Shown: one piece after another, positions 16,930-22,886 of the stretch
Layout of the letters: every line of letters starts with the position of its first letter
Position numbering within the stretch: the stretch's first letter is position 1
DNA from: Sporosarcina jeotgali
GTDB lineage: Bacteria; Bacillota; Bacilli; Bacillales_A; Planococcaceae
DNA length: 64,000 bases
Reading direction: 5' to 3'
Assembly: GCF_033304595.1 (NCBI RefSeq)
Contig: NZ_CP116341.1
Location: 3,017,001-3,081,000, forward strand
Notes under the pieces: generated by a model
Databases searched by the model: none
The model's input: only the letters and a program-made list of their open reading frames with translations
What the model was told of the DNA's origin: nothing
Translations under genes and position numbers: made by a program

Positions 16930-17280
16930 ATGATGGAAGAGTATTCAGCAGATGGGGTACTACAAAGTTATAAAGAAAGCATAGGCCAGTTCACTGAACA
17001 AATGCCCGAGATTGGGAGCGGGTTCCACTCCTTTACCGAGAGCTGCTTTGCAGATGGAGCGCTGGACGGGAAACAGAAACAGCTGATTGCACTGGCAGTG
17101 AGTGTTTACGCAAACGATAAAACCTGTATGACTTTCCATGCAAAGGGATGTGTCGATGCTGGCTGCACCGAACAAGAAGTGTTAGAGGCATGCAGTGTAG
17201 CCGCTGCATTAGGAAGCGGTGCCGTGATGAGTCGGACGGTTACTTGTTTAAGCGGGATGTTCCAACAATTTCAGAAGTGA
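16930..17280 (+). CDS. AhpD-like carboxymuconolactone decarboxylase family protein
   Basis: A 116-residue all-helical protein of the CMD/AhpD family. The core KQLIALAVSVYAND and the segment CMTFHAKGCVDAG match the active region, but only the second Cys of the usual CxxC remains: position -7 from the His is Asp. It may therefore not be a thiol peroxidase of the AhpD kind. GGAGGAG precedes the start. It stands alone. Confidence 0.8.
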   Translation: MMEEYSADGVLQSYKESIGQFTEQMPEIGSGFHSFTESCFADGALDGKQKQLIALAVSVYANDKTCMTFHAKGCVDAGCTEQEVLEACSVAAALGSGAVMSRTVTCLSGMFQQFQK

Positions 17281-17377
17281 TGATGATTGCTGCTCGTCGG
17301 ACAACTTTACAGTTGTTGGCGGGTGGTTTTTTGTTGTTGGCTGCAGGGGTATGGGTGCTTTGTGAGGACGGGTTAGC

Positions 17378-17630
17378 GTTATGAGCAGTTTTTCGGGGTT
17401 TATGATCACTTTCCTGGGGGTTATGAGCGGTTTCCTTGGTTTATGATCACTTCCCTGCGGTTATGAGCGGTTTCCTTGGTTTATGATCACTTCCCCGCGG
17501 TTATGAGCGGTTTCCTTGGTTTATGATCACTTTCCTGTGGTTATGAGCGGTTTCCTTGGTTTATGATCACTTTCCCATAGTTATGGGCGGCCTTGGGGTT
17601 ATAATCACTTTTCAAGAGTTATCATTAATC
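17378..17630. repeat. Intergenic array of 20-bp tandem repeats (array 1)
   Basis: About 12 units at a 20-bp period fill most of the 433-bp gap between the AhpD-like gene and the antiporter. From 17421 to 17580 two unit types alternate strictly: TTATGAGCGGTTTCCTTGGT (at 17421, 17461, 17501, 17541, four identical copies) and TTATGATCACTTYCCNNNRG (at 17441, 17481, 17521, 17561), making a 40-bp higher-order repeat. Flanking units decay. All begin TTATGAKC. The rest of the gap (17281-17377, 17631-17713) shows nothing clear. Confidence 0.95.
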
Positions 17631-17713
17631 TGCATAGCTACCTTCCCCTCTCCAGCTTCAGCTGTTTCAATACGTGCCGCCTGTGGTACTAGATGGAGTA
17701 GGTATGCGAAAGG

Positions 17714-18913
17714 GTGAGGGCATTGATTGCTATACAAATTACAATTTTACTTGCGATTGGGTACACAGCACTCACAATTGACCGCTGGCAGAAGAACTTC
17801 CCGCTGCCCGTATTTCTTGTGCTCGTCGGCATCGGCTTGTCTTTCATTCCTTACTTCGCTGCTATGTCCGTCTCAAAAGACATAATCTATGATGTTTTTT
17901 TACCTGGACTTCTATTTATCTCAGCCTATCAGTACTCTGCAAGGGCTTTAAACGCTCATAAAGGTGTAATTGGGGTTCTGAGTACTCTTGGTCTCATCTT
18001 GACGGCCGTAGTGCTCGGAGCTTTCGTCTATGCGTTTGGCGGCCTGTTCATCAGCATTTCCTTTGTAGGCGCGCTTTTGTTTGCATCCATCCTGACCCCA
18101 ACAGATCCTGTGTCCGTCGTTTCTATATTGAAGCAATCTACAGATGATCCCGCCATTGCTGAAATTGTGGATGGCGAATCGATGATCAACGACGGAACAA
18201 GTGTCGTGCTGTTCGGGGTTTTGATGGGGATGTTTACAATTGACAAATCGTTTCACCTTTTTTCATTTCTGGGAGAGTTCCTTTATGTATCTATCGGTGG
18301 TGCCGGACTTGGGTTACTCATTGGCTGGCTCTTTAGTAAAGCTCTCCACCTGGCTCCCCAAAAAGAAAACCAAGTACTGCTCAGCATCGTTATTGCGTAC
18401 GGAGTTTTTCATCTAGCAGAGTTCTTCGAGTTTTCCGGTGTTCTTGCAACGGTGTCTGCCGGAATCATGTTATCTGCTGAACTTGAGCGCACAACGAACG
18501 AAAAAGAGTATCGGGCTGCACTTAACGGCTTTTGGGAAGTCGTTGAACCTGCATTGCTCTCCTTGCTATTCCTATTGATCGGCATTACATCTGCGAAGTA
18601 CCTGCTATTTAATCATTGGATTCTGGCAATCGTCATCTTTGTTGTATCCATAGTTATTCGATTTTTGGTTATCGCCGGAACCATGCAGGTTTTTGATGGA
18701 TTAAAACAGCGCATCAGCTTTAGCGACGCTTTCCTTCTCTCGTGGTCAGGCATTCGGGGTACGATGTCCGTCTTCCTGCTGCTCAGTTTGGAAGCAGAAG
18801 CTGATGGTCATGCTGACATCATCATTTCACTGGGATTTGCAGTCGTCTTTCTGTCTCTCGTTTTTCAAAGTATCGGGATTTATCCACTATCGAAACGATT
18901 GGCCCGTCACTAA
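17714..18913 (+). CDS. CPA1-family Na+/H+ antiporter
   Basis: About 399 residues with eleven to twelve membrane segments. Ion-site motifs typical of NhaP/NHE exchangers are present: LTPTDPVSV near residue 133 and DGESMINDGTSVVLF near 155. A conserved Arg lies in SWSGIRGTMS near 338. It lacks the long C-terminal cytosolic domain. The start is uncertain: GTG at 17714 has almost no spacing from AAAGG, while TTG at 17723 would use GGGTGAGG. It probably exports Na+ and is useful in alkaline or salty habitats. Confidence 0.9.
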   Translation: MRALIAIQITILLAIGYTALTIDRWQKNFPLPVFLVLVGIGLSFIPYFAAMSVSKDIIYDVFLPGLLFISAYQYSARALNAHKGVIGVLSTLGLILTAVVLGAFVYAFGGLFISISFVGALLFASILTPTDPVSVVSILKQSTDDPAIAEIVDGESMINDGTSVVLFGVLMGMFTIDKSFHLFSFLGEFLYVSIGGAGLGLLIGWLFSKALHLAPQKENQVLLSIVIAYGVFHLAEFFEFSGVLATVSAGIMLSAELERTTNEKEYRAALNGFWEVVEPALLSLLFLLIGITSAKYLLFNHWILAIVIFVVSIVIRFLVIAGTMQVFDGLKQRISFSDAFLLSWSGIRGTMSVFLLLSLEAEADGHADIIISLGFAVVFLSLVFQSIGIYPLSKRLARH

Positions 18914-20569: not shown

Positions 20570-21901
20570 ATGTACATCTCGTTCATACACAAAAAAAGAC
20601 GGGTTACCCCGCCGGTTCTCATTGCAAGCAGTTTTTTAGTTACGATAGTCATCGGGACCTTGCTGCTTAAACTTCCTTTTGCAACAACCATTCCAATCAC
20701 TTGGACAAATGCGCTGTTTACTGCCACATCCGCGACAACGGTTACAGGATTAAGTGTATTTGATGTGGGTTCTACTCTTACGCTATTCGGCGAAATAGTA
20801 CTTCTAGCTCTCATCCAAATAGGCGGCGTTGGATTAATGGCTTTCGCGGTTGCACTTTTAATGGTTCTTGGACGAAAAGTGGGGATGAAAAACCGGATAT
20901 TTCTTCAAGAATCATTCAGTCAGCAATCGCTCGGAGGAACGGTTAAATTTTTGAGAAGCATTCTGGCATTCGTATTCGTAACAGAAGGTATCGCATTTAT
21001 TTTATTATCATTTTTTTGGATCCCAGAGTTCGGTTTGAAACATGGTCTTTACTATAGTCTATTTCATGTCATTTCCGCTTTTAACAATGCGGGATTCTCT
21101 TTATTTCCTGATAACTTAATGGGATTTGCGGGCAGTCTACCTGTAACGCTCATTTTATCTTCACTTTTCATCATCGGGGGACTTGGTTTTACAGTAGTCA
21201 TGGAGGTTATCGCAAAACGCTCTCCAAAACAATGGTCTCTTCATACGAAAATGATGCTGGCCGGAACACTCACGGTTAACCTGATCGCTGCATTTTTGCT
21301 GTTCGCGTTGGAATATCACAACACGAAAACTATCGGCAGCATGTCTTTCGGGGACAAAGTGCTGACCTCCTATTTCCAAGCTGTCACACCCAGGACAGCT
21401 GGATTCAACATGGTATCCATCGGTGATATGGAGAGCAGTTCCCTCCTTCTTACATTGTTGCTCATGTTCATCGGAGGGGGCAGCGCTTCTACAGCGTCAG
21501 GTATTAAACTGACAACGTTCATCGTCATTGTAGTGGCCACGCTCGCTTATTTCAGAGGGATGACAGAGCCCCACTTATTTAAGCGCACGATTAAATCGGA
21601 AATCATCTTCCGCTCACTTGCAATTGCGGCTGTTAGTTCTATGCTCGTATTTACAGCGTTCTTCTTGTTGACTGTTACGGAAAAAATGCCATTCATTGAT
21701 TTGTTAATGGAAACGGTATCCGCATTCGGAACAGTTGGCTTGTCAGTTGGGATTACGGGTGATTTGAGTCCCGTGGGAGAATGGATTATCTGCGGAGTTA
21801 TGTTTTTAGGCAGAATCGGCCCCCTCACACTATTCTTCATGCTGATCCGGCCTAAGAAAGAGACCTTCAAGTATTCTTACGACCGTGTTCATACAGGATG
21901 A
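20570..21901 (+). CDS. ktrB: KtrB-type potassium uptake channel subunit
   Basis: A 443-residue TrkH/KtrB family protein that forms the K+ pore. Four M1-P-M2 repeats show the selectivity glycines in TTVTGLSV, NNAGFSLF, PRTAGFN and GTVGLSVG. The gating-loop GGGSASTASGIK lies in the third repeat. The start has AAGGAGG. No KtrA gene is adjacent, so the gating RCK subunit must be elsewhere (as for KtrD/KtrC in Bacillus). The paralogue assignment KtrB versus KtrD is not certain. Confidence 0.9.
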   Translation: MYISFIHKKRRVTPPVLIASSFLVTIVIGTLLLKLPFATTIPITWTNALFTATSATTVTGLSVFDVGSTLTLFGEIVLLALIQIGGVGLMAFAVALLMVLGRKVGMKNRIFLQESFSQQSLGGTVKFLRSILAFVFVTEGIAFILLSFFWIPEFGLKHGLYYSLFHVISAFNNAGFSLFPDNLMGFAGSLPVTLILSSLFIIGGLGFTVVMEVIAKRSPKQWSLHTKMMLAGTLTVNLIAAFLLFALEYHNTKTIGSMSFGDKVLTSYFQAVTPRTAGFNMVSIGDMESSSLLLTLLLMFIGGGSASTASGIKLTTFIVIVVATLAYFRGMTEPHLFKRTIKSEIIFRSLAIAAVSSMLVFTAFFLLTVTEKMPFIDLLMETVSAFGTVGLSVGITGDLSPVGEWIICGVMFLGRIGPLTLFFMLIRPKKETFKYSYDRVHTG

Positions 21902-21908
21902 CAAAAAG

Positions 21909-21948
21909 ATACCGCCCTGAGTCTGCCAGTGCAGATGCAGAGCGGTAT
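21909..21948 (+). terminator. Stem-loop downstream of ktrB
   Basis: ATACCGC pairs with GCGGTAT, with inner CTG/CAG and TCTGC/GCAGA pairings. The tail TGTGTTAG is poor in T, so it may be a weak terminator or an mRNA-stabilising hairpin. Confidence 0.55.
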
Positions 21949-21996: not shown

Positions 21997-22155
21997 TTAT
22001 GATCACTTTTTAAGTTTTATGATCACTTCTCTCGAGTTATGATCGTCTTTACAGACTTATGATCATATTTCTGGTGTTGTGATCACATTCACAGGGTTAT
22101 GAGCACTATTTGGCATTTATGATCATTTCCCTGTGTTTATGAGCAGATTATCACC
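21997..22155. repeat. Intergenic array of 20-bp repeats (array 2)
   Basis: Eight units start exactly every 20 bp at 21997, 22017, 22037, 22057, 22077, 22097, 22117 and 22137. Each opens with TTATGATC, TTGTGATC or TTATGAGC; the last 10 bases diverge freely. The core is shared with array 1, but the units are much more degenerate. It lies between the convergent ktrB and HEPN-like/CBS genes. Confidence 0.92.
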
Positions 22156-22181
22156 TTTGCACGCCCCTCATTGCGATCCCG

Positions 22182-22886
22182 TTAGTCAATCTTCAATAAA
22201 TCATAAGGAGTGATAATCCCGATCAACTTTTCATTATGTCCGGCATTCTCCGTAATTAGCAGCGCTTCGAGACGTGATCCTTTTGTAATTGCTCTCTTGA
22301 AATAATCTTCCGCTTCGTACACAGATAGATCTCTTTTGACAAATTCGAACGATTCCTTACGTTTTTCATAGTTGTAGACGTCAGAGAGTGTCGGTATTTC
22401 CCGGGAAATAGAATCTTCTGTCGATTGGCCAGCGAGCCAGTGAGTAATACCGGCAGCTGTAATGAGTCCTTTGAACTTTTCATTTTCGTAAATCGGAACC
22501 TGGCCAAATTTATTATCACGCATTAGCCTAAGGGCAGATGTAAGGGGATCTGATGCTTGCAATGTATGTACCTTACAACCGAACAAGGCACCCACATTCA
22601 ACGGATTGCTTACTTTGCGTTCAATCAATTCAATCAGTTCCACGATATCATCATGCGGTTCGGCAATCACGTAGTCCAGCCCGGTTCGGTGATGAATAAT
22701 CGCATTCCGTAAATCACCAAACTCCCGCAAGTCCTCTTCATAATTACGGACTACCGAGTTTTTGATTTTCGCTTTTTCAATGAGACGATAAAAAGGCAGA
22801 AAACCACTCTCATCTACTTTTTTAGAAAGTGTTTTTTCAATACGATTGTAGGCAATAATAAAGCGATCTGAATTTTTCACAGACAT
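22182..22886 (-). CDS. HEPN-like helical domain fused to CBS pair
   Basis: A 234-residue soluble protein. Residues 1-92 are helical with the segment GDLRNAIIHHRTG (R60, H65), which resembles the R-x4-H motif of HEPN ribonuclease-fold domains. Residues 100-234 form two CBS repeats (VPIYENEKFKGLI and IITPYDLLKI), which usually bind adenine nucleotides. The combination suggests nucleotide-controlled activity, but catalysis is not shown. AAGGAG precedes the ATG. It is monocistronic with a position between array 2 and the opp operon terminator. Confidence 0.7.
   Translation of the reverse strand: MSVKNSDRFIIAYNRIEKTLSKKVDESGFLPFYRLIEKAKIKNSVVRNYEEDLREFGDLRNAIIHHRTGLDYVIAEPHDDIVELIELIERKVSNPLNVGALFGCKVHTLQASDPLTSALRLMRDNKFGQVPIYENEKFKGLITAAGITHWLAGQSTEDSISREIPTLSDVYNYEKRKESFEFVKRDLSVYEAEDYFKRAITKGSRLEALLITENAGHNEKLIGIITPYDLLKID

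Follow-up and report, generated by a model that had tools for sequence, protein, structure and literature searches.

Between two convergent genes of the Sporosarcina jeotgali chromosome, eight copies of a short motif succeed one another every 20 bp, which raises the question of what these copies are and what holds their core and spacing in place. We analysed the surrounding stretch of 64,000 bp (the window), in which the array and its neighbours are arranged as follows:

20570-21901, plus strand: TrkH-type cation transporter gene (Pfam PF02386, E 9e-56), whose 3' end faces the array
21909-21948, plus strand: terminator-like inverted repeat (ATACCGC ... GCGGTAT), just 3' of trkH
21997-22156, plus strand: degenerate array, the second of the window, 8 units of 20 bp
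22182-22886, minus strand: CBS-domain protein gene (Pfam PF00571), convergent with trkH

The units start at 21997, 22017, 22037, 22057, 22077, 22097, 22117 and 22137, and every step is exactly 20 bp. The eight units in strict phase between convergent genes, as described in a first-pass annotation made from the letters, were thus borne out. The same annotation held that the first 8 bases were kept. This was right for a shared core, TT(A)TGA(T/G)C with a next base of A (seven units) or G (one unit), but not for literal identity (five units TTATGATC, unit 5 TTGTGATC, units 6 and 8 TTATGAGC). The core differs from a DnaA box of the TTATNCACA type at two or more positions. The stop of the CBS-domain gene is 26 bp from the end of the array. 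The inverted repeat on the trkH side has no clear T-run and was rejected by the terminator scorer, and the trkH end is absent from the accepted terminators; in the relatives G020 and G010 the corresponding hairpin is followed by a T-run.

The first array of the window (array 1) lies between two genes of the same strand:

16930-17280, plus strand: carboxymuconolactone decarboxylase-family gene, upstream of array 1
17360-17638, plus strand: array 1, 14 units with the tolerant caller, alternating TTATGAGCG and TTATGATCA types
17714-18913, plus strand: Na+/H+ exchanger gene, downstream of array 1

Array 1 has four steps of 18-21 bp among its 20-bp steps and is partly homogenised into a 40-bp higher-order repeat. 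At steps of 19-21 bp, chains of four or more TTATGA were found twice in the window and never in 60 first-order Markov simulations, while a two-unit pattern had 332 and 201 matches in the whole host genome (G000) versus 0 for the reversed pattern. Chance is therefore excluded as the origin of the arrays.

The arrays belong to a family whose 20-bp unit has the consensus TTATGA(T/G)C(A/G) S WWW Y C n n G R T. The sampled stretches of G000, together with the window, contained at least 43 arrays with 506 units; this is a lower bound, as an array beyond 830 kb entered the sample only if one of its ends led to it or if it adjoined an array so found. Using a caller that tolerates steps of 18-22 bp and one missing unit, 427 of 463 steps were 20 bp, 26 were 21 bp and 10 were 18, 19 or 22 bp. 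Units of the types TTATGATCA and TTATGAGC(G/A) often alternate. Exactly 8 units were present in 15 of the 43 arrays and fewer than 8 in three, although the independent 8-unit arrays number fewer than 15, because four lie in one tandem duplication (L187) and two in another (L183). At L187 (2146-3593), five arrays of 8-9 units follow each other at intervals of 314-319 bp, array and flank having been duplicated together in tandem. Eight was also the unit number of 9 out of 23 arrays in G008 (7 to 9 units in 17 of the 23) and the commonest one in named genomes (11 of 55 arrays, range 3 to 25), the mode being broad outside G000 and G008. Isolated cores were counted in 224 kb outside arrays (TTATGATC 4, TTATGAGC 11); the counts were similar to those of the control words TTATGACC (7) and TTATGAAC (10) and show neither avoidance nor enrichment.

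The strand of the G000 arrays was compared with the direction of replication, placing the origin near 3.18 Mb from parS sites and assuming the terminus opposite. One chromosome half carried 11 plus and 9 minus arrays. The other, left half (1.58-3.18 Mb), was strongly one-sided, with 21 plus and 2 minus arrays, five of the 21 forming one tandem duplication. A symmetric replichore rule was accordingly rejected. A Chi-like motif was rejected as well, covering only part of the G-type units. Array borders showed features of their own. Across L161-L188 of G000, the 20 bp upstream of the arrays are G/T-rich and the stretch past the last unit is richer in C and A. In G008 (L206-L221), GTGAAG stands directly 5' of unit 1 in 7 of the 17 arrays listed, the first unit there being 21 bp long, and is a possible species-specific 5' border.

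Next, we compared core (positions 1-6 and 8) and linker (positions 10-20) between orthologous arrays paired by their flanks. For the four ortholog pairs with 8 units in both G000 and G083, 0 of 224 core positions had changed, compared to 55 of 352 linker positions (Fisher p = 4e-13). The step lists agreed fully, two of the four pairs sharing a first step of 21 bp, and each unit had its own linker, which argues that the units were not recently copied. Position 7 changed between T and G in 3 of 3 cases and position 9 between A and G in 4 of 5. Over all 14 pairs of G000 and G083, changes amounted to 17/1007 in the core, 276/1562 in the linker and 332/3930 in the flanks. The 17 pairs of G008 and G088 gave 3/849, 49/1326 and 215/4975 respectively, counts that still contain, as erroneous pairings, two L214-L232 pairs (one flank only, 82-85%) and one L213-L237 pair (one flank only). 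As the arrays were found by their core, this conservation is conditional on array survival. Between G000 and G083 the linkers differed more than the flanks (17.7% vs. 8.4%), perhaps because flanks include coding ends or because units convert each other.

In 17 stretches of G083, 152 of 186 steps were 20 bp and 26 were 21 bp. The 43 alignment gaps inside the 14 G000/G083 pairs comprised 17 that deviate by at most 2 bp from a multiple of 20, 17 of 1-5 bp and 9 of other lengths, and some small gaps cancelled each other or, with a neighbouring gap, completed a whole unit. Whole-unit changes are thus frequent and small shifts also occur; G083 looks like a metagenome assembly, in which long arrays may collapse. 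Taken together, the alignment of orthologs supports what had been proposed from the window, namely that core and spacing are under selection and that the pattern does not stem from recent duplication. The core did not evolve as fast as the linker over the 14 pairs, and spacing was held in the four 8-unit pairs. Phase-breaking indels were not common, within the limits that one-base shifts occur and that unit number varies from 0 to 15 at the trkH gap. The denial of duplication holds for the 8-unit ortholog arrays but not for some others, array 1 among them.

The trkH gap is free of the bias of ascertainment by core, as a protein search, rather than the motif, led to it. We compared it in ten species, nine of which had both the TrkH and the CBS genes, the tenth (G083) being cut by a contig end. 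Nine of the 10 species had at least one unit, identically placed and oriented: 8 units in G000, 2 in G083, 1 in G025, 2 in G020, 15 in G007, 3 in G076, 6 in G010, 8 in G088 and 8 in G008; G022 had none. Linkers differed between species except for close relatives (G008 and G088 identical, first units in common between G000 and G083, end pieces in common between G007 and G020). In G083 (L130, 1-300) the array ends after the second core and is followed, at the contig end, by other DNA resembling the end of an insertion sequence. With 0 to 3 units at this gap in G022, G025, G020, G083 and G076, the array is dispensable at a given locus.

In the genus survey, 36 of 68 genomes had at least one three-unit TTATGA match and 12 had more than 100. 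At least one of the 32 genomes lacking such a match, G034, has another core. The matches listed in a scan of named genomes included Sporosarcina, Fictibacillus and Bacillus niameyensis; the remaining ones, mostly single and in unrelated taxa, look like chance. The 90-unit array of Bacillus niameyensis (L061, 5739-7538), the first nine units of which are identical (TTATGAGCGAGTTTCGGATT), is a recently expanded minisatellite on the same core.

Other species carried other cores on the same 20/21-bp frame, TTATGGACTT, TTATCAGCG and TTATGACCG (the last in G061 and G220), and other genera GGACAGTATT or CGCGAGTATT, the latter at 21 bp in genus g32. The trkH gap of G068 contained five TGGACTT units at 20 bp, in a genome with only two three-unit TTATGA matches. 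Three-unit matches of TGGACTT numbered 44 in G068, 11 in G029 and 1 in G032, versus 0 in the other 65 genomes of the genus, and with the preceding bases this core reads mostly (T)TATGGA(C/G)TT. Arrays of TATCAGCG at 20 or 21 bp were found among the 68 genomes in G034 (8) and G035 (11). Matches of the reversed control pattern in g37 and g32 led to arrays of AGTATT. Ten distinct ones, with steps of 20 or 21 bp, were assigned to g37 from the numbering of their loci (L243, L244, L251, L252, L256, L259, L263 and L264). Seven of them have four exact units and the other three have three, two of the latter following a degenerate unit. Of these 10 arrays, 8 have GGAC ahead of unit 1 and 5 have TCCAA behind the final core, which hints at inverted ends. 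Several TTAT-type cores appear to differ from one another in a stepwise manner, which suggests a recognition factor changing with its sites.

A conserved short core, a fixed phase, free linkers and a size near eight units form the pattern expected of cooperative protein sites. We consider the chances evenly balanced that the array is a multi-site, operator-like docking platform for a putative sequence-specific DNA-binding protein, whose likeliest role would be architectural. Each unit would offer one 8-9-bp core, TTATGA(T/G)C(A/G), to this putative binder, and the 20-bp step, nearly two helical turns, would bring successive cores onto roughly the same side of the helix. A/T pairs predominate at unit positions 1-4 (99-100%) and 11-13 (95, 91 and 80%), and G/C pairs at positions 5, 8, 10, 15, 16 and 18, a 10-bp alternation of weak and strong pairs that, judged from base composition, is compatible with bending. 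The 12-bp linker would be free in sequence save for the A/T-rich patch at 11-13, and the resulting alternation may act as it does in bent or wrapped DNA. The working size would be about 8 units (160 bp), larger numbers being tolerated. Acting at the DNA level in intergenic space, the arrays would nucleate a nucleoprotein filament or wrap by which the chromosome may be organised or insulated; we infer the bound protein, the wrapping and the architectural role from the pattern of the sites. Candidates for the binder were sought beside the arrays. None of the 14 largest clusters (up to 10 members) of 584 flanking proteins was recognised as DNA-binding, judged without Pfam annotation, and these clusters revealed no common neighbour gene, several being one locus repeated or one locus across species. 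Rep_3 (PF01051), the sole candidate family tested by co-occurrence, is absent from G000; it had a match in 9 of 68 genomes (8 over the cut-off) and did not follow the distribution of the arrays.

The neighbours of 69 arrays were convergent in 30 cases, co-directional in 18, anti-directional in 17 and divergent in 4; in a second set, counted once per gap (n = 54), the numbers were 18, 11, 16 and 9, compared to 23, 39, 39 and 28 in 129 control gaps of at least 40 bp. The over-representation of convergent gaps (p = 0.03 for 18/54 vs. 23/129) is what would be seen if the arrays were transcription insulators or roadblocks, at which a bound protein halts read-through between convergent genes or beyond weak terminators. 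However, 27 of the 54 gaps are tandem contexts. Furthermore, of 54 distinct gene ends facing an array, 36 had an intrinsic terminator ahead of the array, compared to 49 of 124 control ends (p = 0.001; 43 of 61 if an end facing more than one array is entered once for each). Arrays therefore tend to lie beyond transcription terminators and do not replace them, and we regard insulation of transcription as quite improbable. It is hardly conceivable that the array works as a structured or protein-binding transcript. Its units keep a fixed orientation within an array, and for 2 of 24 native 8-unit arrays the array strand folded with a z of -3.1, but the mean z of the 24 against unit-permuted versions was -0.36 ± 0.25 and +0.07 ± 0.23 on the two strands, and array flanks paired no better with their own partners than with others. 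No Rfam family was above the gathering score in the window (the best in the array region, E 0.99, was sub-threshold and outside the array), and among five further array loci, L213 has an L31 leader and L264 a sub-threshold manganese riboswitch, both lying away from the arrays. Moreover, array orientation is largely independent of transcription, if not perfectly even (16 anti- vs. 11 co-directional in one set, 17 vs. 18 in another), and the position is often beyond terminators. In the absence of a mean folding signal and of specific flank pairing, the array most likely works as DNA.

Neutral or selfish tandem repeats of the STAR or satellite type, growing and shrinking by slippage, tolerated at gene 3' ends and keeping their core by the copying of whole units, would account for the fluctuation of unit number between species, for the homogenised arrays (the 40-bp period of array 1, the 90 units of Bacillus niameyensis) and for the scarcity of divergent gaps (4/69 and 9/54 vs. 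28/129 in the control). Nevertheless, an unchanged core alongside a separate linker for every unit in the four 8-unit pairs is difficult to reconcile with unit copying, as is the persistence of trkH-gap arrays whose linkers are distinct in all but close species, and a mode at exactly 8 units is no obvious slippage distribution; this explanation is unlikely, though it carries some weight. BIME-2 elements of enterobacteria are the model for a topological role, in which preferred gyrase or supercoil-pinning sites at gene 3' ends would act by way of intrinsic curvature. The 160-bp size, the 10-bp weak/strong periodicity and the gene-end position agree with such a role, but an invariant core of 8-9 bp is more specific than expected of gyrase, and gyrase is common to bacteria whereas the cores differ between species of one genus, which makes it very unlikely. 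The arrays might instead be plasmid-style iterons or partition centromeres, sites for Rep or ParR that have been domesticated or that act against plasmids. Such sites are typically phased direct repeats with a unit of about 20 bp, and ParR of pSK41 is reported to bind 20-bp repeats (PMC9426499). This reading, already disfavoured and highly improbable, is opposed by the tens of chromosomal loci, by the ordinary metabolic or transport genes adjoining the two window arrays and by the lack of Rep_3 in G000. A mobile origin on phages or plasmids was likewise rejected, because blastn with array 1, the sole query, gave no plasmid or phage match, and the two viral matches of the pattern were 10-bp simple repeats.

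Coming back to the docking platform, its wider form is a more tentative possibility: the arrays may be, across the family, what satellite DNA would look like in bacteria, with tens of chromosomal arrays per genome, each a short series of sites in 20/21-bp phase, and with the putative protein's specificity and the core shifting together between species while the frame stays constant. If so, they would represent a chromosome-organising system with fast-evolving specificity. If a protein reads the arrays, tens of chromosomal loci are bound in strict helical register, and the putative binder can be isolated directly with the known target sequence as bait. The change of core within the genus, once at the trkH gap itself, would allow the binder and all its sites to be watched evolving together.

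Among the matches listed from the open-licence PMC literature, no published description of 20-bp arrays such as these was found, and the arrays were compared with known systems of related design. CRISPR arrays consist of near-identical repeats of 20-50 bp and unique spacers of similar length, whereas only 8-9 bp are conserved per 20 bp here. Plasmid iterons bound by Rep_3 initiators are helically phased direct repeats, about 20 bp each; the present arrays differ from them in their many loci and free linkers, in a genome without Rep_3. Proteins of the BldC and Lrp types bind cooperatively to phased repeats and form filaments or wrap DNA, and the arrays resemble their sites as repeats for a filament-forming or wrapping protein, the binder here being putative. 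The parC locus of pSK41 is alike in its direct repeats of 20 bp, where DNA wraps around ParR as a solenoid, and parC repeats differ in sequence and spacing between families (PMC9426499). It is a plasmid locus upstream of parM, whereas the arrays occupy tens of chromosomal loci beside unrelated genes, the neighbours of the two window arrays belonging to families other than parM and parR.

The nearest known kind is the STAR elements of staphylococci, although the arrays lack two of their defining features. The STAR motif is a GC-rich 14-mer, T(G/A/T)TGTTG(G/T)GGCCC(C/A), interspersed with at least 40 bp (PMC3532100). Its consensus had 0 matches in the window at up to 1 mismatch, and the step here is 20 bp. 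Both are interspersed intergenic direct repeats with a conserved motif, locus-specific spacers and a variable unit number, spread from locus to locus was seen in neither, and in both the numbers differ strongly among species of one genus (PMC3532100); the two kinds have their mode of evolution in common. The arrays differ from what is described there in their 8-9 bp every 20 bp, their 8-unit mode and their species-specific cores on one frame. The function of STAR elements is reported there as unknown (PMC3532100), and a protein reading the arrays described here would offer a testable function for intergenic direct repeats of this kind.
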